Shown here piece after piece: positions 1-18,574 of a stretch of DNA of 64,000 nt (its first letter is position 1; the number at the start of each line of letters is the position of its first letter). The position numbers and the translations under genes were made by a program. The stretch is from Ancylobacter defluvii (GTDB lineage: Bacteria; Pseudomonadota; Alphaproteobacteria; Rhizobiales; Xanthobacteraceae): the NCBI RefSeq assembly GCF_018390605.1, contig NZ_JAHBGD010000026.1:1-64000 (forward strand), in the 5' to 3' direction. The notes beneath the pieces are model-generated. The model was not told the DNA's origin and did no database searches. It was given only the letters and a program-made list of their open reading frames with translations.

Positions 1-1
1 C

Positions 2-103
2 ATCGGCCACGGCGACGAATGTCTGCAGATCCTCGATGTCCAAGTCGGCGTTCCCCGTTTTGCGACACAGCGTGCCGGAATATGGAGCTACCCTATCAGC
101 TGA
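2..103 (+). CDS. Possible C-terminal tail of an unidentified protein
   Basis: A reading frame open from the left edge of the window codes for 33 residues ending PISstop (last residues AGIWSYPIS). It looks protein-like but is too short to assign. The gene would begin outside the window. It could equally be non-coding sequence, because the next 200 bases hold no convincing gene. Confidence 0.25.
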   Translation: MGHGDECLQILDVQVGVPRFATQRAGIWSYPIS

Positions 104-317
104 CGGAACGGCAAGTTGCGCCCGGCAAGCGTCGCCCGCCGGCGCGGACCTCGAAGCGGCTCGATCTGCCCGCCGTAATAGACCGTTCACGTGCGGCGGC
201 GTGAGATTCTACGCGCCGCCTTTTGGATCTCTCGCGGAGACTCCTCAATGCCGCTCAGCCGCCGCGATGCCCTGATCTCGGCCTCGGCGCTCACGATGTT
301 CAAGGAGGAAAGCATCC
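104..317. other. Leader region with no supported gene
   Basis: No convincing gene is seen here. A short stretch from 248 would read MPLSRRDALISASALTMF, which resembles the start of a Tat signal peptide, but it runs without a break into the wrong frame of the following hydrolase. It may be a fragment left by a deletion. The region ends with a strong Shine-Dalgarno sequence (AAGGAGGAAAG) serving the ATG at 318. Confidence 0.35.
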
Positions 318-1153
318 ATGGGCTTTGTCACGACCGACGACGGCGTACAGATTTTCTACAAGGACTGGGGTGCCAGGGATGCCCAGCCGATCGTTTTCAC
401 CATGGCTGGCCGCTCAGCTCCGACGACTGGGACGCGCAGATGCTGTTCTTCCTGTCGAAGGGCTATCGCGTGGTCGCGCATGACCGGCGCGGCCACGGGC
501 GCTCGGAGCAGGTCGCCGACGGTCACGACATCGACCACTACGCGGCCGACGCGTTTGCCGTCGCCAAGGCGCTGGACCTGAAGAACGCGGTTCACATCGG
601 CCATTCCACCGGCGGTGGCGAAGTGGCACGGTACGTGGCGCGACATGGCGAACCCGCGGGCCGGGTGGCCAAGGCCGTCCTCGTCGCTGCCATTCCGCCG
701 CTGATGCTGAAGACCGGCGACAACCCTGAGGGCACAGCGATGGAGGTCTTCGACGGCTTTCGGACGGCGCTGGCCAGCAACCGTGCGCAGCTCTTCCGCG
801 ACGTTCCCTCGGGCCCGTTCTACGGCTTCAACCGCGAGGGCGCGACGGTCCACGAAGGCGTGATCCAGAACTGGTGGCGGCAAGGCATGATGGGGAGCGC
901 CAAGGCACACTGTGATGGCATCAAGGCCTTCTCGGAAACTGACCAGACCGAGGACCTCAAGGCCATCACCGTGCCGACGCTGGTGCTGCACGGCGAGGAC
1001 GACCAGGTCGTTCCGATCGCCGCCTCGGCTTTGAAGGCGGTCAAGCTGCTGCCAAACGCCTCGCTGAAAACCTATCCCGGTTTCTCGCACGGAATGCTGA
1101 CGGTGAATGCTGATGTGCTGAACGCCGACCTTCTGAAGTTCGTTACGAAATGA
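318..1153 (+). pseudogene. Alpha/beta hydrolase (non-heme chloroperoxidase type), frameshifted
   Basis: This is an alpha/beta-hydrolase of the non-heme haloperoxidase/arylesterase type. The natural start is the ATG at 318, behind an excellent ribosome site, reading MGFVTTDDGVQIFYKDWG. After PIVF (codon 27, about position 398) the frame is lost: the expected HHGWPLSSDDWD continues one base out of frame and is then intact to 1153. Restoring one C near 398-399 would rebuild a full protein of about 278 residues. The catalytic parts are all present downstream: the nucleophile elbow GHSTGG, the acid in LHGEDDQV and the histidine in FSHG. This is either a true inactivating single-base deletion or a sequencing error. 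It heads a run of oxidoreductase-type genes on the same strand. Confidence 0.8.
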
Positions 1154-1190
1154 CGTGGCTGCAGGCACGGCTCAACAAGAGGCTGACAAG

Positions 1191-1925
1191 ATGAGCAGAC
1201 TTGAAGGCAGAACGGCGGTCATAACGGGCGGCGCGACCGGCATCGGCTTTGCGTCGGCCAAGCGCTTCGTCGAGGAAGGCGCTTTCGTGTTCCTCTTCAG
1301 CCGCACCCGGTCGAGGCTTGATGAAGCGGCGGCGAAACTCGGGCCGCATGCGCGTGCCGTCGCCGGGTCGATCAACGAGATCGCCGATCTCGATCGGCTC
1401 TTCGAAACCGTCAGGGCCGAGCGTGGCCGCGTCGACATCCTGCTCGCGAACGCCGCCATCTCGGAACCCACGCCGCTTGGGCAGATCGCTCCCGAACAAT
1501 TCGATCGGGTCTTTGGCGCGAACGTGAAAGGATTACTGCTCACCGTCCAGGGCGCCTTGCCACTCATGGGCGAAGGCGGATCCATCATCCTGACCGGCTC
1601 GAGCGCGTCGGTGAAGGCGTTCCCGAATTTCAGCCTCTATGCCGCGACCAAGGCTGCGGTCCGCAGCTTTGCGCGCAGCTGGACACCGGAACTCGCCGAC
1701 AGGGGGATCCGCGTGAACGTGCTGTCGCCGGGCGGCACGCGGACGGAAAAGGCGCTGGAACTCATGGGCGACGAAGGGATCGAGGCGCTCCGGGGGGCGA
1801 CACCGATCGGACGCGTCGCCGATTCGGACGAGATCGGCGCGGTAGCGGCGTTCCTCGCCTCGCGTGACAGCCGCTTCATGGCCGGGAGCGAGGTCTTCGC
1901 CGATGGTGGCATCGCCCAAATATGA
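1191..1925 (+). CDS. SDR family NAD(P)-dependent oxidoreductase
   Basis: This 244-residue classical short-chain dehydrogenase/reductase has the Rossmann cofactor motif TGGATGIG at residues 12-19, the structural LLANAA around residue 87, and the catalytic set with Ser near 138, Tyr150 and Lys154 (YAATK). The ATG at 1191 was chosen over an upstream in-frame start at 1155 because the product then begins directly at the usual MSRLEGRTAVITGG core and an AAGAGG lies before it. The substrate cannot be read from sequence. It follows the broken hydrolase by 37 bases and precedes an MDR gene, so a shared transcript is likely. Confidence 0.9.
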   Translation: MSRLEGRTAVITGGATGIGFASAKRFVEEGAFVFLFSRTRSRLDEAAAKLGPHARAVAGSINEIADLDRLFETVRAERGRVDILLANAAISEPTPLGQIAPEQFDRVFGANVKGLLLTVQGALPLMGEGGSIILTGSSASVKAFPNFSLYAATKAAVRSFARSWTPELADRGIRVNVLSPGGTRTEKALELMGDEGIEALRGATPIGRVADSDEIGAVAAFLASRDSRFMAGSEVFADGGIAQI

Positions 1926-2067
1926 CCATCGCGGGCGCGGCCCGGGACAGGTCGCGTATCGACGAGCAGCACCGGCCCGGGCCATCAGCCGCCGTTCCGC
2001 CGCCTCGCTTGTTTCGGTCCCGCAGACGGGTCCGACCACTCCCGAGCGAGGACGCAGCGAGCGAACC

Positions 2068-3027
2068 ATGAAAGCAGCGATCTATGACCACCCCGGCCCG
2101 CCAGATGTCCTTCGGTACGCGGACGTGCCCGATCCGGTCTGCCTGAGCGATGGCGTGCTAATCCGCGTCGAGGCGGCCGCCATCGAGGGCGGCGACCTGA
2201 TCAATCGCGCGTCCACGCCTCCGCCCCACCCAGCCTTCGTCGTCGGCTATGCGGCCGCTGGCGAAATCATCGCGGTCGGTGAGAACGTGAAGAATCGCCA
2301 GGTGGGCCAGAAGGTGACGAGCTTCGATCTCGCCGGGTCGCACGCGGAGTTGCGCGCCGTTGCCGCCAGCCGGACTTGGCCTGTGCCGGAAGGGCTCGAC
2401 ACGGCCGGCGCCGCAGCTCTGCCGATCGCATTTGGAACAGCTCATCACTGCCTCTTCGCACGGGGTGGTTTGAAGCGTGGCGAAACCGTCCTCATCCAGG
2501 CCGGCGCCGGCGGCGTCGGGCTCGCCGCGATCCAGCTCGCGCATCGGGCAGGCGCGACGGTGCTTGCAACGATCTCCGGGGCCGAGAGGGCCGGACGTCT
2601 GATCGAGCTTGGCCTCGATCACGCGATCGATCATCGCTCGGACGATGTCGTCGATATGGTCATGCGTCTGACGGAAGGCCGTGGCGCGGATCTCGTCGTG
2701 GACCCGGTAGGAGCCACCTTGCAAGCTTCCCTCGCGGCGCTCCGCCCCGAGGGGCGTCTGGTCTTCGTCGGCAACGCCGGTGGTTCGCAACTCGGTATCG
2801 ATCTGTGGCCGGCGCTGCAGGCGAACCAATCGCTTTTCGGCGTCTTCATGGGAACGCAGTTGGAAAAACCGGAGGTTTACCGCACGGTTTCCAGGATGCT
2901 GGAGCTGGCGGTGACCGGGGATCTTGAGGTGATCGTGGACAGGTCGTTTCCACTTGCGGCGGCTGCGGAGGCTCACGCCTATGCCGAAGCCCATTCCATC
3001 CTCGGGCGCGTCGTCATCGCCTCCTGA
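2068..3027 (+). CDS. Zinc-binding-type dehydrogenase / NADPH:quinone oxidoreductase family (MDR)
   Basis: This 319-residue medium-chain dehydrogenase/reductase resembles the quinone oxidoreductase branch. An N-terminal GroES-like domain starts at MKAAIYDHPGPPDVL, followed by a Rossmann domain with AGAGGVGLAAIQLA as the nucleotide loop. The Cys/His ligands of structural and catalytic zinc are not evident, as expected for this zinc-free branch. An in-frame start exists at 1864, but the extra 68 residues would overlap the SDR gene and look non-native, so the ATG at 2068 is used. The protein probably reduces quinones or enones with NADPH; the true substrate is unknown. Confidence 0.88.
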   Translation: MKAAIYDHPGPPDVLRYADVPDPVCLSDGVLIRVEAAAIEGGDLINRASTPPPHPAFVVGYAAAGEIIAVGENVKNRQVGQKVTSFDLAGSHAELRAVAASRTWPVPEGLDTAGAAALPIAFGTAHHCLFARGGLKRGETVLIQAGAGGVGLAAIQLAHRAGATVLATISGAERAGRLIELGLDHAIDHRSDDVVDMVMRLTEGRGADLVVDPVGATLQASLAALRPEGRLVFVGNAGGSQLGIDLWPALQANQSLFGVFMGTQLEKPEVYRTVSRMLELAVTGDLEVIVDRSFPLAAAAEAHAYAEAHSILGRVVIAS

Positions 3028-3064
3028 TGTGCCGTCTTGGTGAACCGCTGAAGAGAAGGACAGA

Positions 3065-3466
3065 ATGGAAAAGCCGGAATTCTTCGTCACCCCGGGCTAT
3101 GGGGAACGTCTGCGCGACCTGCTGCACTACTCACAGGCAGTGAGGATCGGAAACCGCGTGGAGATATCGGGCCAGGGCGGTTGGGATGACGATCTGCGGA
3201 TTCCCGATGTGCTGGAGGAAGAGATCGCTCAGGCGTTCCGCAATGTGGAGCGCACGCTGGCGACGGCCGGCGCGGGCTGGGAACACGTGGTGCACGTCAA
3301 TTCCTACCATGTCGGCGGCTTTCCCCCGGAGGTCAACGAGACGATGGCGCGACTCTATCGCGAGTATATGCCCCATCATGCGCCGATCTGGACGCAGACG
3401 GGCGTCGACGCGTTGGGGCTACCGACGATGCGCATCGAGATCCGCGTGACCGCCATCATCGCCTGA
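3065..3466 (+). CDS. RidA/YjgF/TdcF family protein
   Basis: This 133-residue protein has the RidA fold signature: an N-terminal strand region with YSQAVRIGNRVEISGQGGWD, a central QAFRNVERTLATAGAGWEHV and the C-terminal PTMRIEIRVTAI. RidA proteins form trimers that deaminate reactive enamine/imine intermediates, and many divergent members sit in catabolic operons with other roles. The arginine in the C-terminal MRIEIRVTA motif agrees with an active deaminase-like site. The start is the ATG at 3065, with AGAGAAGGAC before it. It belongs to the SDR-MDR-cupin group. Confidence 0.88.
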   Translation: MEKPEFFVTPGYGERLRDLLHYSQAVRIGNRVEISGQGGWDDDLRIPDVLEEEIAQAFRNVERTLATAGAGWEHVVHVNSYHVGGFPPEVNETMARLYREYMPHHAPIWTQTGVDALGLPTMRIEIRVTAIIA

Positions 3467-3674
3467 GGCGTGCGGAGGCAAGTCGACTCGACCTTGTTTC
3501 CCCGATCAGGTGACTGTGCGATCTGCCCCGAAAGCAGGCGTGTCGACGTCGGCGAGGAGCATTTCGAGACGAAGATCGTCGATCTTTACCGCTGGCTGGA
3601 GGGCGATACTCGCCATTCTTCAGATGCAGCGGTCTGGATGGCGGCCCGAAACGATCTGCGGAAGGAGAAAAGTG

Positions 3675-4025
3675 ATGAAGGTTCGCAAGTTCACCATCGC
3701 CGATGCGGCGCTGGAGCGCTCGCCCGGCCAGGAGGCGGATGTGTTCGTCGGCAATCTGGTCGATGAGCGGCACGGCGGGCCGATCACCATCGGCTATGGA
3801 CGCTACGCGCCCGGCCAGAGCCTCGTCGAGACAATGGCGGTTGACGACGTCATGATCGTTCTGGAGGGAAGGCTTACGGTTTCCACCGATGCCGGTACGG
3901 TCATCGTCGGCCCTGGCGACATCGTCCATATGCCCAAGGGTGAAGCCGTCACCATTCGCACCGATGAGGAGGGGGCGTTGACCGCCTATGTCACCTATCC
4001 GCATTGGCGGCCCGCACACACATAG
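3675..4025 (+). CDS. Cupin-domain protein (EutQ-like)
   Basis: This 116-residue single-domain cupin has the two beta-barrel motifs spread over GYGRYAPGQSLVETMAVDDV and the later GPGDIVHMPKGEAVTI. The layout resembles the EutQ-type cupins, but the metal-binding histidines are mostly missing, so catalysis is uncertain. The ATG at 3675 is preceded by GGAGAAAAGTG; a longer in-frame start at 3510 gives a poor N-terminus. Last gene of the catabolic-looking run. Confidence 0.75.
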   Translation: MKVRKFTIADAALERSPGQEADVFVGNLVDERHGGPITIGYGRYAPGQSLVETMAVDDVMIVLEGRLTVSTDAGTVIVGPGDIVHMPKGEAVTIRTDEEGALTAYVTYPHWRPAHT

Positions 4026-4326
4026 ATTGCGCCGCCTTCATCGATACCGCTCTCGAAGCCGCTGCCGGGAGGATCGGTTCATTCGCCAACCAGTCAGGAA
4101 ATGGTCTTGCAGATGCGAGTGCTGAGCGCCCGGAAGCGGACGCTCCTCGCCTGCGCCCGTCCATAAGGCGGAGGGCATCGACGTGGGTTGAGACTAGAAG
4201 GCCGCGACGTATTGGAGGATCGCGTAAATCAACGCGCAATGGGTAGTGACGCGCGCGCGGAGTGCGTATTAGCTTCCATTTTACCGGCTGGCTTCGCGTA
4301 GCTGTCTAATGTGAGGATTTGCAAGG
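4026..4326. other. Gap without a supported gene
   Basis: I see no convincing gene here. The base composition drops towards 4240-4320 (AT-rich stretches such as ATTAGCTTCCATTTTACC), which marks the switch from the oxidoreductase genes to the lower-GC defence-like segment. It may carry the promoter of the following HNH gene. Confidence 0.5.
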
Positions 4327-5760
4327 ATGAAGCCTTCCAAGAGCGCACCTAAAGCGCCGCGCCTCTCAGAAATCGAGGGTGCCATCCACCTGAGGATGTC
4401 GCCGAGCCTTCTCGCCCATTTCACCAAGCATGCGGTGAAGTATCAAGAGGACGTTAAGCTTCGCTGCGTCGAGGACGAGGGAGGTCGTTGGTACACGACG
4501 AAAGATCTCGATGCGTTCGACAACTACCTCCGAGCTCCCTGGCCAAAGTCACCTAAGGCACAGCGACCCAAACTTCCTGACAAGATTCGAAAAGAGATCA
4601 TGCTCGAAGCTGCAGCGGTTTGCCCGATCTGCGGCTTTGAGTCGGCGGGCGAGGCAGCGCATATTGAGGCGGTGTCGGCGAGCAAGAGCCACCATCCTGA
4701 GAACTTGCTTTGGCTTTGTCCTAACCATCATACAGTGATCGACGACGTGGCTCAAATGAGCAACGTGAAGATACCCGTCGCGCAGGCTGTAAAAGAGCTA
4801 CTGGTGGAAAGAAAGCTTCGCCTGTTGCGGCACGAGTTTGCTCTAGACAAAAGCATCCTCGACCTGATCCGCCTCGTGGAGAAGGCGTCGGACATGCTAG
4901 CTAATGCCGGACTCAAAGACGCGCATGGGGGGATCGAGGCAGTCGCGGCAATTGACCTCAAAGGGCTGAGCAAAGCCGCGAAAGCAGCCAGTCGCGCCAA
5001 AATTTCCAAGACGGATGCGGACGCGGTTTCACTGCAAGCATTTGCCAAGAAGATTTCAACCTCAACCGCGAAGGCATCCGTCAAGAAGCCCTCATCGCTT
5101 GTGAGTTGGAAGGAAGAAGCCGAGCAGGCCAGGAGCGAATATCTAAAGGCAACAGGTAAGGTTGATTGTCCGCTCTGCCACGGCAGCGGTCATCACGACA
5201 GCATAGACTGCCCTGTATGTCAGGGTGAAGGTTCGATCCGCGAAGAAGACGAAGAGAAGGTTGATCTCGCCGATTTCGAGATGGTCGACTGCCCAGTTTG
5301 CGATGGTGCGGGAACCCTCCGCGGAGACCTTTGCCCCGGATGCGGCGGCGACGCGCGGATGGAACGTCGGTTCGCAGGGAGTATCGACGTTAGTGCCTAT
5401 GGCTTGGTCGATTGCCCTGTCTGCGACGGAAGCGGGAGCCGTGATGGGGACCAATGCCCGTTCTGCAGGGGCGAAAGGCAAATAGAATCGCGCCATGCAG
5501 CGGACATCGATCTCGCAGACTACGACGACGTAAAATGCAGGCTATGCAATGGCTCTGGCCAGTATGAGGGCTTCGACTGTCCCGCATGTGCTGGCGAGTG
5601 TCGGATACCCAAGGGAATGTCTGATCGCATTGACTGGAGCGATTTCGATTTGGTCAAATGCCCGGAATGCAAGGGCACTGGCGCCTCTGAATATGGCGGC
5701 GATTGCAGGTTCTGCGGCGGCCACCGAAAAGTGTTCCGGAGGGATGCAGATGCGCGGTAG
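4327..5760 (+). CDS. HNH nuclease-like protein with five tandem DnaJ-type zinc-binding repeats
   Basis: This 477-residue protein has an unusual layout. Residues 1-90 are an unrecognised N-terminal region. Residues 99-138 form an HNH-type zinc-ribbon nuclease module: CPIC at 99-102, His112 in AAHIEAV, Asn126 and C131-PNHH. Residues 150-275 are charged and helical. Residues 281-465 hold five zinc-binding units, each CxxC, a GxG-like turn, then CxxC, with first cysteines at 281, 322, 363, 404 and 445, an exact 41-residue period. Units are joined by a linker of the type IDLADYD. The CxxCxGxG units resemble the cysteine-rich domain of DnaJ, but no J domain is present. I infer a DNA- or protein-binding role for the repeats and nuclease action for the HNH part. 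It is followed by a SIR2-like gene and sits in a mobile region, so a defence role is plausible but unproven. Confidence 0.85.
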   Translation: MKPSKSAPKAPRLSEIEGAIHLRMSPSLLAHFTKHAVKYQEDVKLRCVEDEGGRWYTTKDLDAFDNYLRAPWPKSPKAQRPKLPDKIRKEIMLEAAAVCPICGFESAGEAAHIEAVSASKSHHPENLLWLCPNHHTVIDDVAQMSNVKIPVAQAVKELLVERKLRLLRHEFALDKSILDLIRLVEKASDMLANAGLKDAHGGIEAVAAIDLKGLSKAAKAASRAKISKTDADAVSLQAFAKKISTSTAKASVKKPSSLVSWKEEAEQARSEYLKATGKVDCPLCHGSGHHDSIDCPVCQGEGSIREEDEEKVDLADFEMVDCPVCDGAGTLRGDLCPGCGGDARMERRFAGSIDVSAYGLVDCPVCDGSGSRDGDQCPFCRGERQIESRHAADIDLADYDDVKCRLCNGSGQYEGFDCPACAGECRIPKGMSDRIDWSDFDLVKCPECKGTGASEYGGDCRFCGGHRKVFRRDADAR

Positions 5761-6135
5761 CAAGAGGCTCTGAGGTGCCGTTGTGCTCTGGTAGGTTCCG
5801 CCCCCCCGGCGACAGAACTGCCTGCTTTACGCGAGAGGTTTCATAGCCTTGGCAGTATCCCAACGACCGAGATGGGGTCTAAGCTGTCGTAGAGATCAAC
5901 CCGCTTTCAAAGGAGTCGTTCGATCCTCTTCACCCATGAGCCGACCGTCTGGATACGGCCCAATCCCGACCATTCAAAGGATCGATGGGCGTACCGGCAA
6001 AGCGACCGAACGAGTGTCAAGCCTCGAGGTGACATCCGCCGACTCCACTCGTCGGCAACAGCGCCGCAGTCTTGTGGCCTCGTCTGATAAACCATCGGTA
6101 GCGGCTTGCATCCAGAGAAGAAGAGGGTAGATCTA
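5761..6135. other. Intergenic region between HNH-repeat and DUF4917 genes
   Basis: I see no protein-like frame in these 375 bases. The end (6116-6135) carries the ribosome site AGAAGAGGG for the next gene. The space is large enough to hold a promoter or a small RNA, but I cannot point to either. Confidence 0.5.
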
Positions 6136-7104
6136 ATGGCTGATCTGATTGACTTCCAAGAAGCCCTGACACGCACGGAAGGTGAAGACCGCGCACTCCT
6201 GATCGGGAACGGATTTTCAGCCGAGTACTTCAGCTACAGCAACCTGCTCGACAAGTCGGGACTCGCCGTCGGAACCCCAGTTCGCAATCTGTTTACTGCC
6301 CTTGCTACCGTGGACTTCGAAGCAGTCGTCCGAGCGCTGGAGGGCGCGGCCCTTGTGGAGCGTGCATACGGGAACTCCGCCCACGCCGCCGATATCGAAG
6401 CGGACGCGCAGAAGGTTCGGGAAGCACTCGTCGAAGCTATCAACGCTACGCATCCTGCCCACCGGGAGGATATCCGATTAAATTATACGAGCAGCGCCGC
6501 GTTTCTTGCGCACTTTTCGACGGTCTTTACGCTGAACTACGATTTGCTTTTATACTGGGTAAACTTGGAGAAATCGGCGTTGCGTGATGGTTTCGGCCTC
6601 GGCAAGGCGGTAGGGTCCTTTCATGGTCCGTTCTCTGAACAAGCGTATTGTCATATCTACAATCTGCATGGTGGTCTTCATCTATTCGAGAACGGTACGG
6701 GAGAGATCTTGAAGGCCGTCGATCGCGGAGCAGGCGTGATCGCGACGATCACTGATGCGATCGCAGAGGGTCGTCGCTTTCCGGTGTACGTCGCGGAGGG
6801 CACCAGCGTTCAGAAGATGCACAAGATCAGCTCTGTCGCGTATCTCCGCCATTGCTATGACACGCTCCGTACGAACTCTGCTGCGATGTTCGTTTACGGG
6901 CATAGCGCCGACGAGAATGATGCGCATATTTATCGCGCCATATTCGGCTCTGGAGCGGCCCATCTCTATTTCGGCGTCTATGAGCCAAACGAAGAAACGC
7001 TAAATACATTGGATGGAGCTCTTGCGAAGTATCAGAAGACGTCAGGCTCATCTGCTGACTACACGTTCTTCGATAGTCGAACTGCGAAGGTGTGGAGCGC
7101 GTGA
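6136..7104 (+). CDS. DUF4917 family protein, SIR2-like fold
   Basis: This 322-residue protein matches the DUF4917 pattern, a family related in fold to the SIR2-like NAD-binding domains found in many anti-phage systems. Visible motifs are GNGFS at residues 24-28 (the nucleotide-loop position), the LNYD motif at 133-136, LHGGLH around 177-182 and a late YGHSADENDAHI around 254-265, which corresponds to the usual GxSxxDxH element. The ATG at 6136 is preferred to the in-frame ATG at 6106 because AAGAGGG lies nine bases before it. Known relatives act as NAD-consuming effectors or are uncharacterised; here the function is inferred. It lies 375 bases after the HNH-repeat gene on the same strand. Confidence 0.8.
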   Translation: MADLIDFQEALTRTEGEDRALLIGNGFSAEYFSYSNLLDKSGLAVGTPVRNLFTALATVDFEAVVRALEGAALVERAYGNSAHAADIEADAQKVREALVEAINATHPAHREDIRLNYTSSAAFLAHFSTVFTLNYDLLLYWVNLEKSALRDGFGLGKAVGSFHGPFSEQAYCHIYNLHGGLHLFENGTGEILKAVDRGAGVIATITDAIAEGRRFPVYVAEGTSVQKMHKISSVAYLRHCYDTLRTNSAAMFVYGHSADENDAHIYRAIFGSGAAHLYFGVYEPNEETLNTLDGALAKYQKTSGSSADYTFFDSRTAKVWSA

Positions 7105-7297
7105 CATAGATCGCGATGCCCCCCCCACGAAAGCGCCTGCTATCGCAACTGTCCTCGCCAAAGCAGACAATCTGTATACGGCCAAACTGGCCATACGTTG
7201 CTGCCGCAGCGAACATACTCGTGGCGCGTCTCGGCTCCTGGCGCCCTCGCCCGCGCGGAATAGCGCGGTGAGATCGCGCCATGGGATTCGGCATTCT

Positions 7298-7780
7298 CAT
7301 CCGCCCACGGATACGGATTTGCCTCCGAACGGATTCAGCGAAGAACAGGCTCCCTTTGCGTTCGAGGAGAGCCGGGAGCACGTAAGCTATTTGTCGTCAC
7401 GGATCGTGCGGAACCGCGTCTTCCGACGCATCGTCCTACACGCCTATGATGAGCGCTGCGCCATCAGCGGCTTGAAACTCATCAATGGCGGCGGGCGGGC
7501 CGAGGTCGCGGCGGCGCATATTCAGCCGGTTCAGGCGAACGGTCCGGATATTGTCAGCAATGGATTGGCTCTGTCAGGTACGGCGCACTGGATGTTCGAC
7601 CGGGGGATGATCAGTCTGACGGACGATCTCGATGTGCTGATCTCCCGGCACGCCAACGATCCTGATGGCGTGCGCGCCTTCATCAATCGGAGCGGACGCG
7701 CAATTGCCCCGCAACGGGCGTTCGAGCGTCCGCATCCGCACTTCCTGCGTTGGCATCGGGAGCACTGCTTCAAGCAGTGA
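7298..7780 (+). pseudogene. HNH endonuclease, 5'-truncated
   Basis: The stretch from about 7320 encodes the C-terminal half of a common Rhizobiales HNH endonuclease: GFSEEQAPFAFEE, then YDERCAISGLKLINGG, AAAHIQPV, the asparagine in SNGLALSGTAHWMFD, and the ending LRWHREHCFKQ. The family is normally near 300 residues, with an N-terminal domain beginning AVFxHRxDSIYDD; that domain is absent upstream. The frame is open further back to 7013, but that part overlaps the SIR2-like gene and does not look like the missing domain. I take it as a gene cut at its 5' end by recombination, though the remaining HNH module might still be expressed. It ends 11 bases inside the end of the convergent minus-strand gene. 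Confidence 0.75.
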
Positions 7781-8435
7781 GGCCAACTGCATCGTGACGC
7801 TGCAGCTGCATCAAGCGCGCAACATCCCGGCGGAGGCGCCGCAGTTCGGGCCATGGGAAATGCCGCCCCTCGGCGCCATCCGCACCGATGGCGATCAGTA
7901 CGTCGAGCTTCGCGGCCAGACCGCGCAGAGAGGTGGCGTCTGCCGCAAAGAGCCGCGCGATCAAGCGCTCTTCATCGTCGGAGGCAGCCGCCTCTTCCTG
8001 CCGAGTGGCGGAGTAGCCGGTGGTGCTATCCGCGTTGTCCCAGCGCCGTTGATGTGCGCGCAGGGTGGCAGCGACTTCGGCGCGTCGCGTGCGTAGCGAC
8101 GGCAGATCGGCCGCAAGCTCATCGAATTGCATCATAGAGCTGACCCGCACAGGCGACGGCAGCTCGGTTGCAGCTAGAACCACCTGCGGAAAGCCGATCG
8201 TCCGCGCCAACTCAGACTCGAGACGCTGCTGTTTCCGGCACAGAGCGAGCGTGCGCCGATGTGCGGCGCGCCACGCTTTCCATCCAAGGACAGCCGCGTC
8301 CGTTGCGCCCTGATCCTGCGGTTCGGCCGCAGCCGAACTGTTGAAGGAAGTGCCGCCGATCGTAATCAGGACGGCGGAGAGAACGTCCCTCCGGGATGGC
8401 CGGGACAGACTCATGCTAATCTCAGAATCAGCCAT
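7770..8435 (-). CDS. Hypothetical protein with Tat-type signal peptide
   Basis: This 221-residue protein is not recognised. The N-terminus MADSEISMSLSRPSRRDVLS continues with a hydrophobic stretch and SSAAAEP, which fits a twin-arginine export signal cleaved near residue 37. The mature part is rich in Arg, Ala, Leu and Glu, with long helical stretches (for example ESELARTIGFPQV and LRGLAAKLDVLIAIG), and contains no cysteine cluster or obvious catalytic motif. The start at 8435 could be replaced by the ATG at 8414. Similar short helical Tat proteins are common near mobile-element genes in Rhizobiales, usually without known function. Confidence 0.65.
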   Translation of the reverse strand: MADSEISMSLSRPSRRDVLSAVLITIGGTSFNSSAAAEPQDQGATDAAVLGWKAWRAAHRRTLALCRKQQRLESELARTIGFPQVVLAATELPSPVRVSSMMQFDELAADLPSLRTRRAEVAATLRAHQRRWDNADSTTGYSATRQEEAAASDDEERLIARLFAADATSLRGLAAKLDVLIAIGADGAEGRHFPWPELRRLRRDVARLMQLQRHDAVGLTA

Positions 8436-8567
8436 GATCCGAGCTCCAATCAGCTTGGTTGTGGTCAGGCCGGGTTGGGTGTTCGCGCACTCACCCCGGC
8501 CGATGTACGTGCAATGCACGTGCATGACTCTGCCTCGAACGACGCCGGATCGCAAGCAATTAGGCCG

Positions 8568-8756
8568 ATGACGAAACAGCCCTTCACTACCCGCATTGAT
8601 GCTGACGTACTCGCGCTTGCGCGCCAGCTCGCTGACGCCGAGCGGCGATCCATTACGGCTTTGATTGAAGTTGCCTTGCTCGAATATGCCGAGCGTCGAG
8701 GCATCTCCGTGGCCGAAAAATCGCAAGAGGTTGCCGAGCCTAAACGCGGCAAATGA
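8568..8756 (+). CDS. Small ribbon-helix-helix-like protein (antitoxin/regulator type)
   Basis: This 62-residue protein starts MTKQPFTTRIDADVLALARQ. It has the pattern of a ribbon-helix-helix DNA-binding protein: a short strand (FTTRID), helix one (ADVLALARQLADAER) and helix two (SITALIEVALLEYAER), with a charged tail. Such proteins are often antitoxins or plasmid/ICE regulators. No toxin gene lies next to it. The promoter region may be shared with the divergent Tat-signal gene, 132 bases away. Confidence 0.6.
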   Translation: MTKQPFTTRIDADVLALARQLADAERRSITALIEVALLEYAERRGISVAEKSQEVAEPKRGK

Positions 8757-9411
8757 TACCGAGATTGGTGATCTTTTACGATCAACCGACAGCACATCAA
8801 GCCGCCCTGCATTGCTGCTCATGTGCACAACAATTGCGACCTCTGTGCAGTTCAGCGGCAGTTTCTCTGCAAGGTTTCTGCACGGCGATGGACATCCATT
8901 GGCATCACGAGGGCAGACTCGACGCTGGTTAGGCTGCCGCGTGAGAGGCGTTTGACCGCGAATCCACTGCGTCGCCGATCTCGCGTCCGACAGCGGTCGT
9001 GGTAGCCTCGGCGCCGGCAGCGTGTCAGCGGCTCGCGCTGGCCAGAATGTGGTCTTCTCGGTTGTTGCCTGGTAGTATATTCGGCGGATGTTGTCAGAAT
9101 TAGGTGATAGGCAGTGAAGCAGAGGAATTTGATGGCAAGATAAAGCGCTCTGCCGATCGCAATGTCTGGCGCCATCATCATGTTGTCTGCACATTGTTTT
9201 TGGCAAGTTGATGCACCGTGCCGAGGCTGAGACGCAACCTGCTAATGAGGTGGTTGTCAGTCTTAAAGCTATGATTTGGGCGGTTTTTGGCGGTCGAAAG
9301 CGCAATGTGCGCGCCGCCCTTTGCTCGCTGCGACAGGTCTTTGCGCGCTAACCTGCGATTCCGCATTTTCTACGCTTGATACTCTGAGGCGCTGCCCCTC
9401 ATCGTGCCGGC
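8757..9411. other. 655-base gap before the relaxase gene
   Basis: I see no convincing protein gene. The composition is lower in GC than the core genome. Its place directly upstream of a relaxase gene makes it the natural site for an origin of transfer, but I could not identify a nick site or a convincing inverted repeat by eye. Confidence 0.4.
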
Positions 9412-11472
9412 ATGGCACAGGACGACGGCGACAAATTCCGGGTCCGCCCCGGCCGGATCCGCCAGCGCGGCACGCGGCAGAGCGGCCTTGCGACATTGCC
9501 ATTCCGGCGTCAGGTCGAGATCGCCGTGCGCGAGTCCGGCGGCTGGTCAGGCCGGAAAGGAAACGGGCGCTATAACGTCCGCGGTCGCGGCGTCCGGGCG
9601 GCGGGCGCGCTCTCCGGCATCGATCGCGGCTGGAAGGTCGATGCCGGCGGACGCTTCCGCTCGCGCCGCGTGGTGGTCAAGGCGCGGGTGGTGAAGCTCG
9701 GTGTCGTGCGTGGCCGCGGCGCGCGTAAGACAGTCGGTGCTTCCGCCAAGGCGGCCGATGCGCATCTGCGCTATCTCCAGCGTGACGGGGTGACGCCCGA
9801 CAGGCAGAAGGGACGCTGCTATTCGGCGGTCGAGGATGAGGCCGATGGCAAGGCCTTCCTGGAGCGCGGTCGCGAGGACCGCCACCAGTTCCGCTTCATC
9901 ATCGCGCCGGAAGATGGGCTGGAGCTCGGCGACCTCAAAGGCTTCACGCGTGAGCTGATGGGGCAGATGGAAAGTGATCTCGGTACCAGGCTCGACTGGA
10001 TCGCCGTCGATCACCACAACACCGGTCATTCCCACACTCATGTGCTGGTGCGCGGCGTCACCGATGAGGGACGTACCCTCACCATAGCCGGCGACTACAT
10101 CGCCCATGGGATACGGCACCGCGCCAGCGACATCATCACCCGCGAACTCGGCCCGCAGAGCGAGCTGGAACTGCAGCAAAAGCTCGCCTCCGAGGTCGAG
10201 GCCGAGCGGCTCACCCGGCTGGATCGTCTCTTGATCCAGGAGCAGGAGCGCGAGGGCTTCGTCGATCTCTTCACCAGCGGCAACCGGCTGATCCGGGAGA
10301 ACCAGAACCTCCTTATCGGCCGACTGCGCAGGCTGGAGGGCTATGGCCTCGCCACCGAGGACTTCCCCGGCGAATGGATCGTCGCATCGCGCACCGAAGC
10401 GACCCTCCACGAGATGGAAGCCCGCAATGACGTCATCCGCTCCATGCACCAGGCGATTGAGGACAACGGCCTCGGCGAGGAGCGCGGGACCAGCCAGTAT
10501 GTCCGCCATGCGCAGGAACCGGAGCAGACGTTGACGGGCCGGGTGCTGGGCAAGGGACTGGCCGGCGACGGACTGAGCGAGACCACCTTTCTCGTGGTCG
10601 ATGGCATCGACGCCCGCGTCCACCACGTCGAATTCCCGGACGCGGTTAAGCTCGAGGGCGTCCAGCGCGGCATGATCGTCGAGGTCACGCCGCCGATCAC
10701 CCAGCCGCGCATCGTCGATCTCAACATCCTTGAGAACGCGGATCAGAATGGCACCTACAGCCCGAGTACGCACCTCGCCCGCATCCGCGACCGCTTCGCC
10801 GAACAGGGCAAGGACCCGGAGGCCTATATCCGCTCGCACGTCCGCCGACTGGAGGCGCTCCGGCGCGCAGGTCATGTCGAGCGGGTCCATGCCGAGCGCT
10901 GGACCATCCCGAAGGATCTCGCCGAGCGAGGCCTTGCCTATGACCGCTCGCTTGTCGGCGAAGGTCCCAATATTCGGATCGCGTCAGAGCTCTCGCTCGA
11001 CCGGCAGATTGGCGTCGAGGGTGCGACTTGGCTCGATCGGGAGCTGGTCTCACCGACACCGCGTTCCCCCGACGGCTTCGGTCGGGACGTTACCCTCGCC
11101 CTCGACCAGCGCCGGGACACGCTGGTCGATATGGGGCTCGCCACGCGGCAGCCCGGCGGTCGCATCGAGACGCCCAACCTGCTCAGCCGCCTCCAGCACC
11201 GCGAGGTCGAGCGCGTCACCGCCGACCTCGCCAGGTCCACAGGCTTGACGTCCCGGCCGTCCGGTCGCGGCGAATATGTCTCCGGCACTGTCACCCGCCA
11301 GCTTCAGCTCGTCTCCGGCCGCTTTGCCATGCTGGAGGACGGCCTCGGCTTCCAGCTCGTGCCCTGGCAGCCAATGCTCGATAAGCAGATCGGCAGGCAC
11401 CTTTCCGGCGTCATGCGCGGCGATGGGGGGATCGAATGGGATCTCGGTCGGCAGAGGGGGCTGGGATTGTGA
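9412..11472 (+). CDS. DUF3363-domain relaxase/mobilization nuclease (VirD2-like)
   Basis: This 686-residue relaxase is of the type found on alphaproteobacterial integrative elements and plasmids. A basic Arg/Gly-rich N-terminus (RVRPGRIRQRG) leads to the relaxase domain: AHLRYLQRDGV around 117-126 with the likely nicking Tyr121, then the metal-binding three-histidine motif HHNTGHSHTH at 201-210. The long C-terminal region is the DUF3363 part, ending WDLGRQRGLGL. The protein should nick oriT and lead the strand in conjugation. The genes that normally flank it (traG/virD4, parA, S26 peptidase, DUF2840) are missing, so it looks like the remnant of a larger element or a mobilizable element relying on another system. 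Confidence 0.9.
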   Translation: MAQDDGDKFRVRPGRIRQRGTRQSGLATLPFRRQVEIAVRESGGWSGRKGNGRYNVRGRGVRAAGALSGIDRGWKVDAGGRFRSRRVVVKARVVKLGVVRGRGARKTVGASAKAADAHLRYLQRDGVTPDRQKGRCYSAVEDEADGKAFLERGREDRHQFRFIIAPEDGLELGDLKGFTRELMGQMESDLGTRLDWIAVDHHNTGHSHTHVLVRGVTDEGRTLTIAGDYIAHGIRHRASDIITRELGPQSELELQQKLASEVEAERLTRLDRLLIQEQEREGFVDLFTSGNRLIRENQNLLIGRLRRLEGYGLATEDFPGEWIVASRTEATLHEMEARNDVIRSMHQAIEDNGLGEERGTSQYVRHAQEPEQTLTGRVLGKGLAGDGLSETTFLVVDGIDARVHHVEFPDAVKLEGVQRGMIVEVTPPITQPRIVDLNILENADQNGTYSPSTHLARIRDRFAEQGKDPEAYIRSHVRRLEALRRAGHVERVHAERWTIPKDLAERGLAYDRSLVGEGPNIRIASELSLDRQIGVEGATWLDRELVSPTPRSPDGFGRDVTLALDQRRDTLVDMGLATRQPGGRIETPNLLSRLQHREVERVTADLARSTGLTSRPSGRGEYVSGTVTRQLQLVSGRFAMLEDGLGFQLVPWQPMLDKQIGRHLSGVMRGDGGIEWDLGRQRGLGL

Positions 11473-11998
11473 GCACCGTGTTCCAAGCTGTTGTCGCTCT
11501 CGGATGAAATAGTGCCGATTGGCGTCACCCCGCCCACAGCAGCAGTTCAAGAAAGGATCTTCCGCGAAAAGCAGGGCGCCGGTCAGCCGCCGCTGCCTCA
11601 AGGCTGGCGCTCCGCGCCACCGCTCACGCGGCTGCGGCCTTGACCCAGCCATGGCAGACCGGAAGGGGCTGGCCATCGCGGAAAGCGGCTTCTGAGCTGA
11701 CCATCCAGCTCTTGAGGCGCCGCCAAGAGTGGATGGAGGTCAGGAATAGACCAGGGTCAATCTAAAAAAGGTAATGTAGGTCAGCGCTTAGCTAGCTGAA
11801 TCCATCCGAAATCTCCTCCACGCCTCCAATACGTCAATATCCTACCAGCGGCCTATAGACACTGCGATAGGGTCGGAAAGCTGCTCACGGAGATTTCGGG
11901 GTCGGGTGAGCGTGCTATCCGCAGACGTGCGTCAGCTCGAAAACTTCGCTCGTTGTGCCTGCCTAAGGAGCCTTTCACACCAAATGCGATGCCGCAAT
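11473..11998. other. Gap after relaxase, decayed DNA
   Basis: No intact gene is seen. The centre holds a short minus-strand remnant (reported separately). The composition changes here from the GC-rich relaxase to the clearly lower-GC restriction operon, so this is a probable junction between modules of different origin. Confidence 0.5.
11624..11761 (-). pseudogene. Unidentified C-terminal coding remnant
   Basis: A minus-strand frame without its own start reads IDPGLFLTSIHSWRRLKSW and continues to HGWVKAAAA, 45 residues before a stop. An in-frame stop lies directly upstream. The amino-acid choice (Trp, Ser, His clusters) looks like real protein more than chance. I do not recognise the parent; it may be the tail of an element-borne gene whose body has been lost. 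Confidence 0.3.
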
Positions 11999-13225
11999 TT
12001 ACGCGATGTCGATAAACCGCTGCAGGACCTCGCGTATCGCCGACGGAGGGCAAATACCGATCTGTCCTACACTCAGTTGAGTAAATCCACTGCTGTGCAC
12101 AACTCCTTCCGGTCCGACCGCTATGGCCATAATCTTACCGCCGGTTCGCGATGCGAGTTCGGAGGCGTAGGCAACCGCTTGGTAATAGCCATTGCGAGCA
12201 ACGAAATCCACGTTCCACGAGTATTTGCATTCGATCACCAAGAATGAATGGCCGCGAGGATGAGCGAGAAGCAGATCGGCTCCCAAGCGGCGGTCTTTGA
12301 GCGCGATGCCGGCGGTCGCTTCGGCATAAGGCGAACGGACTCCCAAATCATGCCAGATGCCAGCGGCCTCAAACCAAAGATCGAATGCTAGATCGCCCCG
12401 CGCGGTCAAACGAAATGAGGGTCTGCCACCACCTGGTCTCAAAGGTCCTTGCGATAGGGTCTGAAAGCCGAGTGATCGGGCCGATAGCAGTATTTCCCCC
12501 AGGATGGCTAGATGGAAAAGTCGCCAGCGGATATTTTCATCTGGGATTAGCAGTTCGTTGGCAAGCGCTTCCGGTGAGGCGTCGAGTACGGAAAGCCTAT
12601 TAGCGATCTCGGACACAGTACCCCATGGGCTGCCGGCTCTTCGAATCGCGATAAGATCGTGGCGGCCCGGACGAATTGCCGGAGCCAATGCTAGCGGCGC
12701 TCTCATAATCGCGCGGCGGCCCGCATCTAATTGGGCCCTAATTTCAACATCGGCATCGGCATAGCTGGATACTGCGCTATCTCGGATTGTTCCCAGTCGT
12801 TCAAACGTCCACCTAAGAGCGGTGCTGAGCAAGCTGTCCGCGTGCCGCGCAGTTTGGCGACCAATAAAAGCTGAAGGTGGCCAACCATATCGGATCCGAG
12901 TTTCCGGCCAAGATATCCCTGATGTTGGTGATTGAGTGGTGGTGGTTTCGTGCAGGCGTACCGCTGGCAGCGCATCCATCCATTTGTGTGCGCGAGTGGG
13001 CAATCCAACAACCAACGGCTTAATTTGCTCGAGTAATACACGGTGGGCTCGAGATTCGATGTCTGTCGCGGACCAATCAGACAAGCCGTCATCGCTTGGC
13101 AGTGCGAGGCCCTCATACAATTGGCCACGACCTGTCCACCGACTAAGGACTTCGTGCAGTCCGTCACTCGGAATTGGCGGTGCGCTTAGGCCAGCGATCC
13201 GAGCATGGAACGGATCCACTGCCAC
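11999..13225 (-). CDS. PD-(D/E)XK nuclease, McrC-like subunit of restriction system
   Basis: This 408-residue protein has an all-alpha/unknown N-terminal half and a C-terminal PD-(D/E)XK nuclease domain. The motif is Asp317 in LGADLLLAH, then Glu332 and Lys334 in IECKYSWN, followed by Q349xxxY353 (GYYQAVAYA), as in the RecB-like branch. It starts with GTG at 13225 and overlaps the end of the McrB-like gene by 40 bases, so translation is probably coupled. By position and domain I take it as the cleaving partner of the neighbouring AAA+ protein, as McrC is for McrB or R2 for R1 in LlaJI. The cleavage specificity is unknown. Base and codon use is lower in GC than in core genes. Confidence 0.75.
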   Translation of the reverse strand: MAVDPFHARIAGLSAPPIPSDGLHEVLSRWTGRGQLYEGLALPSDDGLSDWSATDIESRAHRVLLEQIKPLVVGLPTRAHKWMDALPAVRLHETTTTQSPTSGISWPETRIRYGWPPSAFIGRQTARHADSLLSTALRWTFERLGTIRDSAVSSYADADVEIRAQLDAGRRAIMRAPLALAPAIRPGRHDLIAIRRAGSPWGTVSEIANRLSVLDASPEALANELLIPDENIRWRLFHLAILGEILLSARSLGFQTLSQGPLRPGGGRPSFRLTARGDLAFDLWFEAAGIWHDLGVRSPYAEATAGIALKDRRLGADLLLAHPRGHSFLVIECKYSWNVDFVARNGYYQAVAYASELASRTGGKIMAIAVGPEGVVHSSGFTQLSVGQIGICPPSAIREVLQRFIDIA

Positions 13226-14847
13226 TCCTTCTCAGCGAGAGAACGATTGCCGAGGGACCGCTGCTCTAAAGCGTCGAGGTCGGCAGTCTCAAGTTGGGCA
13301 AGCCATGTTCCAACGTGAATGATATACGCTTCCGCCATAAGTTCTTGGGGATCTGTCTCCATATTGCTATCCCGCGCGTCGTCCTCCACTGCGGGATCCG
13401 TCGCGACTCGCAAATAATCGCACATGGCTATGAACAAAGCCGGCCCCAGCAGCGTGGACTCTGAGGCATAGTGAGCTGCGTAGAGTTCAGCGACCTGATG
13501 GCGAGTGGTGAAGGCTAGTTCGCCTCTGCTATCGGCAAGTATTTGACTGAACGTCTCAGGTGTGGCTGCAGGGATTGGCACACGCACAAAACGGCGTCCA
13601 AGTGCTTGACCAAACCGAAATACCCTTTGGGCGTCTAGAGCATTGTAGGTTCCTATCAAGCGCCAATCGGTTCCGGCTGAATAAATTATCCTACCGTCGT
13701 CGGTATCGGATCTGCTGGAGATGCCGGCGCTCCAGTCCAATAGAACTTCTCGGGCATTCCTATCGCTTGTCTCCGTTCCAATAGCCACTCGACCTCCCGA
13801 TAGCCAAGTAAGCAGGCCTCCAAATATTCGGTCCATATCTGCGCGATTGGCTTCATCTAGGATCAGCCATCTACCTTCGCCGATCGATCTCGGCACCCAA
13901 CCAGGTCTGAAAGCGATGTTACCCTCAATTATCGTTTCGCCTCCGACCAGATCTCGCGTCGTCCAGCTCTCGTCGGGCGTAGCCCAGAGGGGCTCCTTCG
14001 TGATGCGCCCAGCTCTTTCAGTCTCTCTCGCAAAATGCGAGATGGCCCGACGGACAAGAGTAGTTTTTCCGGTACCAGGAGGCCCGACCAGAATAACGGC
14101 AGGTGACGAGCGGATTGCGTTAACAATCATCCGCCAGATCCGAGAGTCGAGTTCTATCTTGTGGTCTTCGCCGGCCCCTCCCACAGGAAGAAATGCAGGG
14201 TGCGCGAGTTCGGTCGTCCGCGGCAAGTCACTTACTGGAGCAGCCGCAATCCTGCTCGCGGTCGCGCTAACAATTTGATCTATATTTGCAGCCTGCGATT
14301 CTTCATGGATCTGCCTCAATCCCTTTTTCAGCTCGTCCGGTGTCAACGCTGTGATGTCTCCACAGTACCAGACCGCGTCGTCGGCAAGCGCGGCATACAT
14401 CGTTACTGTCTTGCGGTCGAAACTCGGCGTTAGAGAAAATGTAGCGCTGTCTGCATAAGGAATATCGCGCTTAGCTGCTTCGTTAGCAAATGCACCGAAA
14501 AGTTTAGCGGCCGAAACTGCCATGAACCGACTATCAGAAAAATCGAATACAAGCAGGAACGGGCTATGTACGAATAGCTTGGCGCCGCTCTTCGCGATAG
14601 CTTGGCCTAACGCCTCCGCGCGGGTGGCAGGTCGATTTCTCGCATTGAGAATTGAAGTGAAAGCGATCGCATCAAACGCTTCACCGTCATATTTTATCTC
14701 GAACCTATAGACCGGATTCGAGCTCCCTCCCATCGCGAGACCTAGCTCGTTCTTGGCCTGCGCAGCTGTAAGGCGCTGGACACGGATGTTTTGATCTTGG
14801 CTGGCAATTTCAACCAGCCGATCTCGCAAAGCATCATCTTTGGCCAT
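13186..14847 (-). CDS. McrB-like AAA+ NTPase of restriction system
   Basis: This 553-residue protein has an N-terminal domain of about 220 residues, likely the DNA- or target-recognition part, followed by an AAA+ module of the McrB/MoxR branch. Walker A is GPPGTGKTT, Walker B is WLILDEANRAD, and sensor 1 is LIGTYNALD. Such motors translocate DNA with energy from GTP or ATP and recruit a nuclease subunit. The classic McrB guanine-recognition signature is not obvious, so the nucleotide used is open. The ATG at 14847 is chosen; a TTG at 14853 overlaps the methyltransferase stop and could be used for coupling. It is the middle gene of methyltransferase, ATPase, nuclease. Confidence 0.82.
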   Translation of the reverse strand: MAKDDALRDRLVEIASQDQNIRVQRLTAAQAKNELGLAMGGSSNPVYRFEIKYDGEAFDAIAFTSILNARNRPATRAEALGQAIAKSGAKLFVHSPFLLVFDFSDSRFMAVSAAKLFGAFANEAAKRDIPYADSATFSLTPSFDRKTVTMYAALADDAVWYCGDITALTPDELKKGLRQIHEESQAANIDQIVSATASRIAAAPVSDLPRTTELAHPAFLPVGGAGEDHKIELDSRIWRMIVNAIRSSPAVILVGPPGTGKTTLVRRAISHFARETERAGRITKEPLWATPDESWTTRDLVGGETIIEGNIAFRPGWVPRSIGEGRWLILDEANRADMDRIFGGLLTWLSGGRVAIGTETSDRNAREVLLDWSAGISSRSDTDDGRIIYSAGTDWRLIGTYNALDAQRVFRFGQALGRRFVRVPIPAATPETFSQILADSRGELAFTTRHQVAELYAAHYASESTLLGPALFIAMCDYLRVATDPAVEDDARDSNMETDPQELMAEAYIIHVGTWLAQLETADLDALEQRSLGNRSLAEKEWQWIRSMLGSLA

Positions 14848-14849
14848 AC

Positions 14850-16226: not shown

Positions 16227-16565
16227 GTTACCCTTCGCTCACAGCCGATCGCGACGGTAGCTTTATGCGATTCTCTCGTAAACGCGATTGTCGAATAGGC
16301 GCGAGGCGATCTTCATCGAGCCGGAACAAAAGGTGAATCACTTTGCGTAGCCCGTCAATCAGTGCTTTTCGACGACAGCAGAAATAGTCCATAGGGCGCA
16401 GCCCGGATCGAGCCAATCTGCGGGCAAGCGGATATTGGCGACTGCGGAGGAAAGGACGCCTTGGGGAGACTGAGCTGCCAACGCTCATTCGCTCGGCGAA
16501 CATCGAAAGCCGCAGCGTGCGTAACGGCTATTCCGTGAGGCCCCTCGGCCTTCCAGACTGGCGAG
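16227..16565. other. Gap between methyltransferase and recombinase modules
   Basis: This interval should hold the promoter of the restriction operon. A minus-strand frame of 91 codons (16503 to 16228) stops two bases before the methyltransferase start, so a small controller-type protein is conceivable, but its sequence (many Arg, Leu and Ser, no helix-turn-helix pattern) does not convince me. No Vsr endonuclease motif was found. Confidence 0.4.
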
Positions 16566-16823: not shown

Positions 16824-16838
16824 GAGGAGACGCCGGAC

Positions 16839-18527: not shown

Positions 18528-18574
18528 CCCCCAGATTCGTAGTCTGGTGCTCTATCCAGCTGAGCTACGGGCGC
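18498..18574 (-). tRNA. tRNA-Arg(ACG)
   Basis: The minus strand folds into a standard 77-base cloverleaf: acceptor GCGCCCG paired with CGGGCGC, a D-arm around AGCTCAGCTGGATAGAGC, an anticodon stem CCAGA/TCTGG with loop CTACGAA giving anticodon ACG, and a T-arm AGGAG-TTCGAAT-CTCTT. A discriminator G and an encoded CCA end the gene. The neighbouring serine recombinase reads 30 bases into its 3' end, so this gene is the probable insertion site of the island to the left. Confidence 0.96.

Follow-up and report, generated by a model that had tools for sequence, protein, structure and literature searches.

A rare, widely scattered bacterial family of HNH proteins with an acidic array of predicted anti-TRAP-like zinc units

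A single gene in the DNA of Ancylobacter defluvii that we analysed (64,000 nucleotides, here called the window) encodes an HNH protein with a C-terminal array of five zinc units, and the proteins that carry such an array constitute a rare, unnamed and widely scattered bacterial family. On balance we lean towards reading its members as single-gene, probably anti-phage HNH nucleases in which the acidic zinc array docks proteins and does not wrap DNA. HNH defence nucleases are a known kind; what we judge to be new is the unusual, sensor-like array.

Domain architecture

The open reading frame at 4327-5760 on the forward strand is intact and encodes 477 residues. It is the only match to itself in its own genome, and its G+C content is 0.569, against 0.662 for the window as a whole. 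All parts of the protein are read from the forward strand. A winged, MerR/excisionase-like helix-turn-helix (HTH) fold is predicted at residues 11-69 (4357-4533) from the structure model and Foldseek. The HNH module follows at residues 94-140 (4606-4746), recognised by Pfam HNH_2 and by residues that are kept throughout the family, and then comes a region at residues 149-275 (4771-5151) that the model predicts to be helical and that is net positive. Four zinc units, placed from their CxxC positions and the model, occupy residues 279-319 (5161-5283), 320-360 (5284-5406), 361-401 (5407-5529) and 402-442 (5530-5652); the terminal fifth, placed from its CxxC positions, occupies residues 443-477 (5653-5757) and has a loop of 15 residues instead of 14.

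In Pfam the protein matches DnaJ_CXXCXGXG (2.3e-16) and HNH_2 (1.1e-4; 22.4 bits, cut-off 21), and it falls just below the cut-off for Anti-TRAP (31.9 bits, cut-off 32). The NCBIfam RtpA model scores 56.3 bits, below its cut-off of 65. The original prediction had noted that the CxxC pattern recalls DnaJ in a protein that lacks a J domain, and no J-domain model is present among the Pfam matches up to an E-value of 0.1. It had also recognised no named family with this architecture; Pfam, NCBIfam, PADLOC and PHROGs indeed name only its parts, and profile searches with the full protein assigned those parts, never the whole, to families. In a literature search made mostly without subscription papers we recognised no paper on an HNH protein with a DnaJ-like or anti-TRAP-like array. 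HNH and anti-TRAP/DnaJ-type terms both occur in the accessible part of PMC1524935, where they belong to different phage ORFs, while the accessible part of PMC13092281, figure legends included, names a zinc-finger system that it leaves unspecified, so that it could not be compared with the family.

Spacing of the zinc units

CxxC motifs begin at residues 99, 281, 295, 322, 336, 363, 377, 404, 418, 445 and 460. The total of 11, which includes the one in the HNH module, compares with at most three in every other member of a set of 291 stop-free segments of at least 100 residues in the window. The first cysteines of the five units stand where they had been predicted (281, 322, 363, 404 and 445), 41 residues apart on four occasions; in the last unit the register of the second cysteines slips by one, with 15 residues from 445 to 460 as against 14 in the other units. 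When residues 271-477 were shuffled 20,000 times with their composition preserved, no run of CxxC motifs in a 41-residue register exceeded three, a length reached in four shuffles, compared with the five observed.

The exact period of 41 residues to which the original prediction drew attention is a property of the window protein but not of the family, in which periods of 42 and 43 occur as well. We compared 78 units, and the 63 links between them, in the 15 non-redundant proteins. The loop from CxxC to CxxC within a unit measures 14 residues in 37 units, 15 in 11, 16 in 28, and 12 and 19 in one each, whereas the step that leads from the second CxxC of one unit to the first CxxC of its successor measures 27 residues in 62 of the 63 links and 25 in the other. 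The conserved quantity is thus the 27-residue step between units and not the period, which is mostly 41, 42 or 43 because the loop varies in length while the step stays fixed. That each unit has four cysteines is a matter of construction, the units having been located through their CxxC motifs; the unbroken 27-residue step indicates that no degenerate unit lies between those counted. A count of units in homologues, as had been proposed, gave three (L025, from Azospirillum) to seven (L021) per array. The fixed step, set against loops of variable length, offers a direct structural hypothesis.

Family membership and distribution

With the window protein included, we found 21 array-bearing proteins, and all 21 have the same order of parts: an N-terminal region (a winged HTH in the models of the window protein and L025), the HNH module, a stretch modelled as helical, and the zinc array. 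Scanning genome contigs with the single sequence found nothing; scanning them with a profile gave 20 loci, 16 of them with the array. To these were added two phage contigs (L030 and L052), a plasmid (L006), a further genome (G990, locus L067) and the window. L030 and L052 were the only loci taken from two other scans (17 and 16 loci), their matches extending well beyond the HNH module. The 21 leave out L026, L027 and L028 (interrupted or limited to the N-terminal part), L029 (an unrelated HNH protein) and a broken copy in genome G236; L007/L002 and L023 are the same protein and were counted once. Removal of six near-copies of L006 (L012-L017) leaves the 15 non-redundant proteins. The broken copy in G236 lies at about 9080-10640 of L008 and retains six units in pieces, separated by stops and frame changes.

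The hosts belong to the Pseudomonadota, Bacillota (Neobacillus), Myxococcota (Corallococcus), Spirochaetota, Ignavibacteriota and Candidatus Sumerlaeota, in addition to the two phage contigs. The gene is rare everywhere we looked. It was present in three of 297 genomes of the order, the window's own included; among 385 genomes of the class only the window's own had it, and among 398 of the phylum three did. A second sample of the phylum, 249 genomes chosen around G990, had it in G990 alone. These samples overlap. When the sequence ahead of the array was used for a maximum-likelihood tree (16 rows), the window protein grouped with Sphingomonas L010 (98/97) and next with Methylobacterium (100/99). 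All six proteins with a period of 43 fall into one group (100/99) that mixes Bacillota, Spirochaetota, Sumerlaeota, Pseudomonadota and a phage contig, and this mixture suggests transfer between phyla. Copies in different species of Methylobacterium and Methylorubrum are near-identical (L006 and L012-L017) or closely related (L011); the near-identity, in what seems to be a common metal-resistance setting, suggests recent spread.

Gain and loss of units

The idea that the array arose by duplication of one unit gained support from the DNA of relatives. Unit repeats were sought in four of them (L019, L022, L024 and L030), and in all four the array contains tandemly repeated units of 126 or 129 bp that match one another at 85-94%. 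Tandem Repeats Finder reported no repeat within the window gene, where one unit is 123 bp, and its units have therefore diverged. Comparison of 77 units, from which unit 6 of L010 was left out as it is cut by the contig end (an earlier comparison had kept it, and its short length inflated some nearest-unit matches), showed that 20 of 48 internal units and seven of 15 first units, and only two of 14 last units, have their closest counterpart within their own protein; ten of the 14 last units are nearest to the last unit of another protein. In Methylobacterium, units 4 and 5 of L011 (five units) are nearest to units 5 and 6 of L006 (six units), from which it follows that these two arrays differ by an internal unit. 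From these sequence comparisons we infer that internal units have been gained and lost by in-frame duplication, with the terminal unit conserved.

The HNH module and the N-terminal region

Pfam HNH_2 matched all 14 members tested, and the HNH core pattern is present in all 21 proteins, with the zinc and catalytic residues that characterise the superfamily. C99, C102, H112, C131, N133, H134, H135 and D139 are invariant in the 14 proteins aligned, and N133, H134 and H135 are kept in all 21. The six residues first proposed as the module (C99, C102, H112, N126, C131 and H135) are positioned as stated, but N126 does not hold as a motif residue: this middle asparagine is glycine in nine of the 21, among them the nearest relatives of the window protein. 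C99, C102, C131 and H134 would form a C3H structural zinc site and H112 and H135 would lie at the active site, on the assumption that residue roles carry over from other HNH enzymes.

Likeness to nucleases of known systems is weak on every measure. HNH profiles resemble TagI (E 0.016) and a SAVED-domain protein (E 0.077); PADLOC models for 'Effector, Endonuclease' and SAVED-HNH match the HNH part at 7.9e-5 at best; and the best PDB match of the L025 model in a fold search is the modification-dependent nuclease EcoKMcrA (E 0.016). These weak matches suggest that the family has in common with McrA, TagI and the SAVED-HNH proteins (the Cap5 type of CBASS) an HNH core with a cysteine zinc site. 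The SRA, SBD and SAVED domains of those proteins are unmatched in the family, and the zinc array occupies the place of the sensor.

AlphaFold2 was used to model the window protein with 14 family sequences, and a second model was made of L025. In the window protein the HNH part (residues 91-150) has a pLDDT below 60, while in L025 it shows the beta-beta-alpha pattern, with strands at 100-103 and 118-121 and a helix at 123-130. The N-terminus of the window model has helices at 15-22 and 26-34, strands at 48-50 and 53-57 and a helix at 58-69, with pLDDT values of 78-90, and the L025 model has the same HTH pattern at 75-94. MerR-like or HTH viral proteins were among the Foldseek matches (E 0.44 and 1.1, probabilities 0.96 and 0.94), the search giving no aligned range in the window protein.

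An HTH-like fold in two models, the glycine at position 126 in nine of 21 proteins and the fact that anti-TRAP, which the zinc units resemble, is itself a regulator would each be expected if these proteins regulated or assembled neighbouring mobile or defence genes, their HNH module being structural or residual. Invariance of H112, N133, H135, D139 and the zinc ligands in 14 of 14 proteins argues against a residual module, and the neighbours differ from locus to locus, so there is no common target; we regard a regulator or assembly factor as decidedly unlikely.

Structure and charge of the zinc units

The model of the window protein has a mean pLDDT of 75.8 and a pTM of 0.53. Within the array pLDDT is 76-91 in every block except residues 291-300 (68), and the units, as modelled, are anti-TRAP-like ribbons. 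In a modelled unit strands occupy offsets 0-2, 11-12, 15-16 and 25-27 and are followed by a helix; the last unit is partly resolved. According to the accessible part of PMC11255114, anti-TRAP has strands at 9-11, 20-21, 24-25 and 34-36 and a helix at 38-50, so that the strand offsets of the predicted units are those of anti-TRAP. Two anti-TRAP structures rank first and second among Foldseek matches in the PDB at a probability of 0.99, with E-values (0.63 and 0.79) that are not significant alone. Pfam Anti-TRAP matched ten of 14 members. Other sequence searches also find anti-TRAP, although DnaJ zinc domains score better there. The array of the L025 model is weaker, its units 1 and 2 being only partly formed.

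Anti-TRAP (RtpA/AT, PF15777) thus has the same predicted order of strand, CxxC knuckle, hairpin, CxxC knuckle, strand and helix as the units, and in the aligned chain 14 residues separate its two CxxC motifs, as in four of the five units of the window protein. It differs in being a single module of 53 residues that trimerises, whereas the family has three to seven modules concatenated behind the HTH and HNH parts. Membership of the anti-TRAP protein family itself was ruled out, the window protein being a multi-domain protein of 477 residues with an RtpA score under the cut-off. With the DnaJ cysteine-rich domain (PF00684), the best Pfam match, the array has CxxCxGxG motifs in common. DnaJ has four such motifs in one domain, unequally spaced and cross-paired, in contrast to the five regularly spaced units of the window array. 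A DnaJ chaperone (Hsp40 type I) was rejected: the J domain is unmatched and NCBIfam DnaJ models match only the zinc part, far below their cut-offs.

The array carries a net negative charge in all 21 proteins (-4 to -35; -18 in the window protein), corresponding to -3.0 to -12.7 per 100 residues. For the stretch that joins the HNH module to the array the net charge ranges from -2 to +10 (+9 in the window protein, from residue 146 to the array). The original prediction had envisaged a regular rod able to wrap or measure a target. With an acidic array in 21 of 21 proteins and units that resemble a protein-binding module, a rod that wraps or measures DNA is not supported; the net charge speaks against DNA wrapping and for contact with protein. 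The anti-TRAP comparison points the same way: in the accessible parts of the papers concerned, anti-TRAP needs zinc for its oligomers and its function (PMC2896485) and uses its zinc-binding and helical domains to dock on the TRAP protein (PMC11255114).

One can still ask whether the array binds nucleic acid and holds the HNH module at a set distance along DNA or RNA, the protein then being a restriction enzyme with a zinc reader. CxxC units are common among nucleic-acid binders, three of 14 members weakly match a model for a putative DNA-binding phage zinc finger, the units match Q-antiterminator-like PHROGs, and their spacing is regular. We hold this to be rather unlikely, given the negative charge throughout the family, a closest solved fold that is a protein-protein module, and a variation from three to seven units that would alter any length being measured. 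Stretches 374-411 of P0001 and 408-486 of L052 are the zinc units that match phrog_6060 and phrog_127, a hint at the sequence level that the module recurs in phage regulators. By analogy with anti-TRAP, the array is most likely a protein-docking surface.

Genomic neighbourhoods

Several relatives lie in or beside defence loci (system names are PADLOC labels). In L019 (Ignavibacteriales) a SIR2-like gene, TIR-APAZ and pAgo precede the family gene, with one base between; that SIR2 gene matches PDC-S21 at 1.8e-4 only. In L007/L023 (Hyphomicrobiaceae) the order is SIR2-APAZ, pAgo, an XRE-HTH protein and, five bases on, the family gene, after which come a weakly PD-T7-like protein and a strong PD-T7-1 match (1.3e-83). 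The XRE-HTH protein directly upstream (L007, 8731-10959) has 742 residues and matched no other Pfam domain. For the short-Argonaute pairs TIR-APAZ and SIR2-APAZ we use the names SPARTA and SPARSA, respectively. In L024 (Spirochaetes) HsdM, the family gene, HsdS and HsdR follow one another on one strand. L022 (Neobacillus) has Wadjet JetC and JetD upstream and a DrmC-like protein downstream, its two other neighbours being without a match, and L025 has Lamassu LmuA/LmuB and SIR2 downstream. A strong match to a named defence system is thus found near five of the 15 non-redundant loci (L019, L022, L023, L024 and L025); the PADLOC scan of neighbours behind this count covered all loci but L006, L010, L011, L030 and L052. 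L020 gave a weaker one, a PRTase_III-A-like protein about 5 kb off (3e-15), with three other neighbours without a PADLOC match. In a set of 299 genomes PADLOC's pAgo model matches 16 times, in 14 of them, from which the chance that two of 15 loci lie within 3 kb of a pAgo gene is about 6e-7, a guide only, as genomes of 4.2 Mb were assumed, pAgo was picked post hoc and one host lies outside the sampled phylum.

The link to defence that had been suspected therefore shows in the position of the gene in several relatives but not in all. L006 (Methylobacterium) is near RND-type ACR_tran and DUF411 genes, of metal-resistance type, and a TnpB-like transposase, and the other Methylobacterium loci resemble it in their ORFs; a scan of three neighbours of L018 and one of L021 gave no match to a defence system. 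Signs of mobility are frequent. An IS-type integrase is near L018. In L067 TnsA, a Mu/Tn7-type transposase, TniB and TniQ accompany the family gene, whose fellow cargo is a RES-domain protein without a PADLOC match and a metallo-beta-lactamase-fold protein. A VirB8 (TrbF-like) gene is about 2.6 kb from L010, and the interrupted L028 comes just after a TrbI gene. Phage contig L052 has an origin-nicking replication gene (phrog_91), with the family gene adjoining a repressor-like protein, and L030 carries a minor tail protein.

The window gene also lies in a mobile region, as had been proposed. Downstream are a relaxase (NCBIfam RlxS, 608 bits, below the cut-off of 850) and a large serine integrase (16839-18574; phrog_95, 8.9e-107) whose end overlaps a tRNA-Arg on the other strand. 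A second copy of the tRNA-Arg 3' end, as an attachment-site repeat, was not found in the window; the only 14-mer match in that search, at 36461, starts from 18441, outside the tRNA. The SIR2-like neighbour is the DUF4917 gene at 6106-7104 on the forward strand (Pfam 5.4e-51), which matches the PADLOC candidate PDC-S21 (3.8e-91), the only defence name near the window gene and itself a candidate, and PADLOC SIR2 models at 0.0016 or worse. It is present as described, but it does not look like a conserved partner: no strong DUF4917 or PDC-S21 match occurs among the scanned neighbours of relatives, it was found adjoining the family gene in the window alone, and an obligate partnership was rejected. 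Overlapping its end, a forward-strand ORF at 7013-7780 resembles the C-terminal half of an HNH phosphorothioate-DNA restriction enzyme (NF045808, 97.8 bits, cut-off 180, model positions 157-284 only) and is probably a remnant. On the reverse strand at 11999-16226, one gene without a family match, an AAA_5 ATPase and a C5 DNA methyltransferase (PADLOC MTase_II, 4.4e-94) may form a restriction-like operon. As a whole the setting resembles a mobilisable island that may carry defence genes.

Three stretches of the window protein match another PADLOC candidate, PDC-M01B, best at residues 313-394 against model positions 289-363. The PDC-M01B member in the same genome has, by eye, an HNH-like motif, as the window protein does, and follows an ATP-binding protein (by eye an AAA ATPase; L068, 53-2415, contig C20). 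The best match of the window protein is confined to its zinc part, those found in four genomes stop at model positions 275-290, and no such ATPase adjoins the window gene. Identity with PDC-M01, which would call for a whole-model match and an adjacent ATPase, was set aside, and PDC-M01 looks like a different HNH family (41 and 299 genomes). The same genome also carries a pAgo gene on contig C25.

HNH proteins are frequent among homing enzymes, the family gene is sporadic and its copies in G236, L027 and L028 are interrupted, all of which would suit a free-standing homing endonuclease or selfish HNH gene without a defence role. We consider this very improbable. The insertion sites are unrelated between loci, the Methylobacterium group excepted; the gene in L024 lies on the same strand as HsdM, HsdS and HsdR and between them; and an expandable acidic array would be superfluous for a homing enzyme. 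The only Rfam match in positions 1-20000 of the window is the tRNA, hence there is no group I intron there, and an intron-borne endonuclease was rejected with no intron family in that interval.

Discussion

What the sequences establish is the architecture, its conservation, the spacing rule, the expansion of the repeats and the gene neighbourhoods; nuclease activity, zinc binding, protein docking and a defence role are inferences. Our findings are consistent with a docking nuclease in which each part of the conserved order has its own task. The predicted N-terminal winged HTH would contact DNA, and the beta-beta-alpha metal site of the HNH module would cut it, a role suggested by the invariant residues and the likeness to McrA, TagI and the SAVED-HNH proteins. 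The array, as modelled, would be a covalent chain of zinc ribbons of the anti-TRAP kind, each with its own zinc, held at the near-constant step of 27 residues. This acidic chain most likely provides a multivalent surface for docking proteins, through which cutting would be gated, either by recognition of a protein from phage or host or by assembly of the nuclease. Unit number would shift by in-frame tandem duplication of one unit, and the array could adapt in this way.

A bolder reading, which we put forward tentatively as a possibility, is that the family is a class of one-protein immune nucleases with an expandable anti-TRAP-like chain as the sensor, in which each unit is a protein-binding arm on the fixed 27-residue step and duplication of a unit (123-129 bp) retunes valency or target, and that it is a portable module embedded time and again in defence operons of other kinds, SPARTA, SPARSA and type I restriction among them. 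If this is true, the number of units and the sequence of the protein-binding arms would track phage proteins. To our knowledge the anti-TRAP fold is known only from one regulator of tryptophan genes; if the array is a sensor, the fold gains a second use as a concatenated docking array, and the bacteria that carry the gene would possess a simple immune nuclease, encoded by one gene, in which the part responsible for recognition evolves through duplication of its units.
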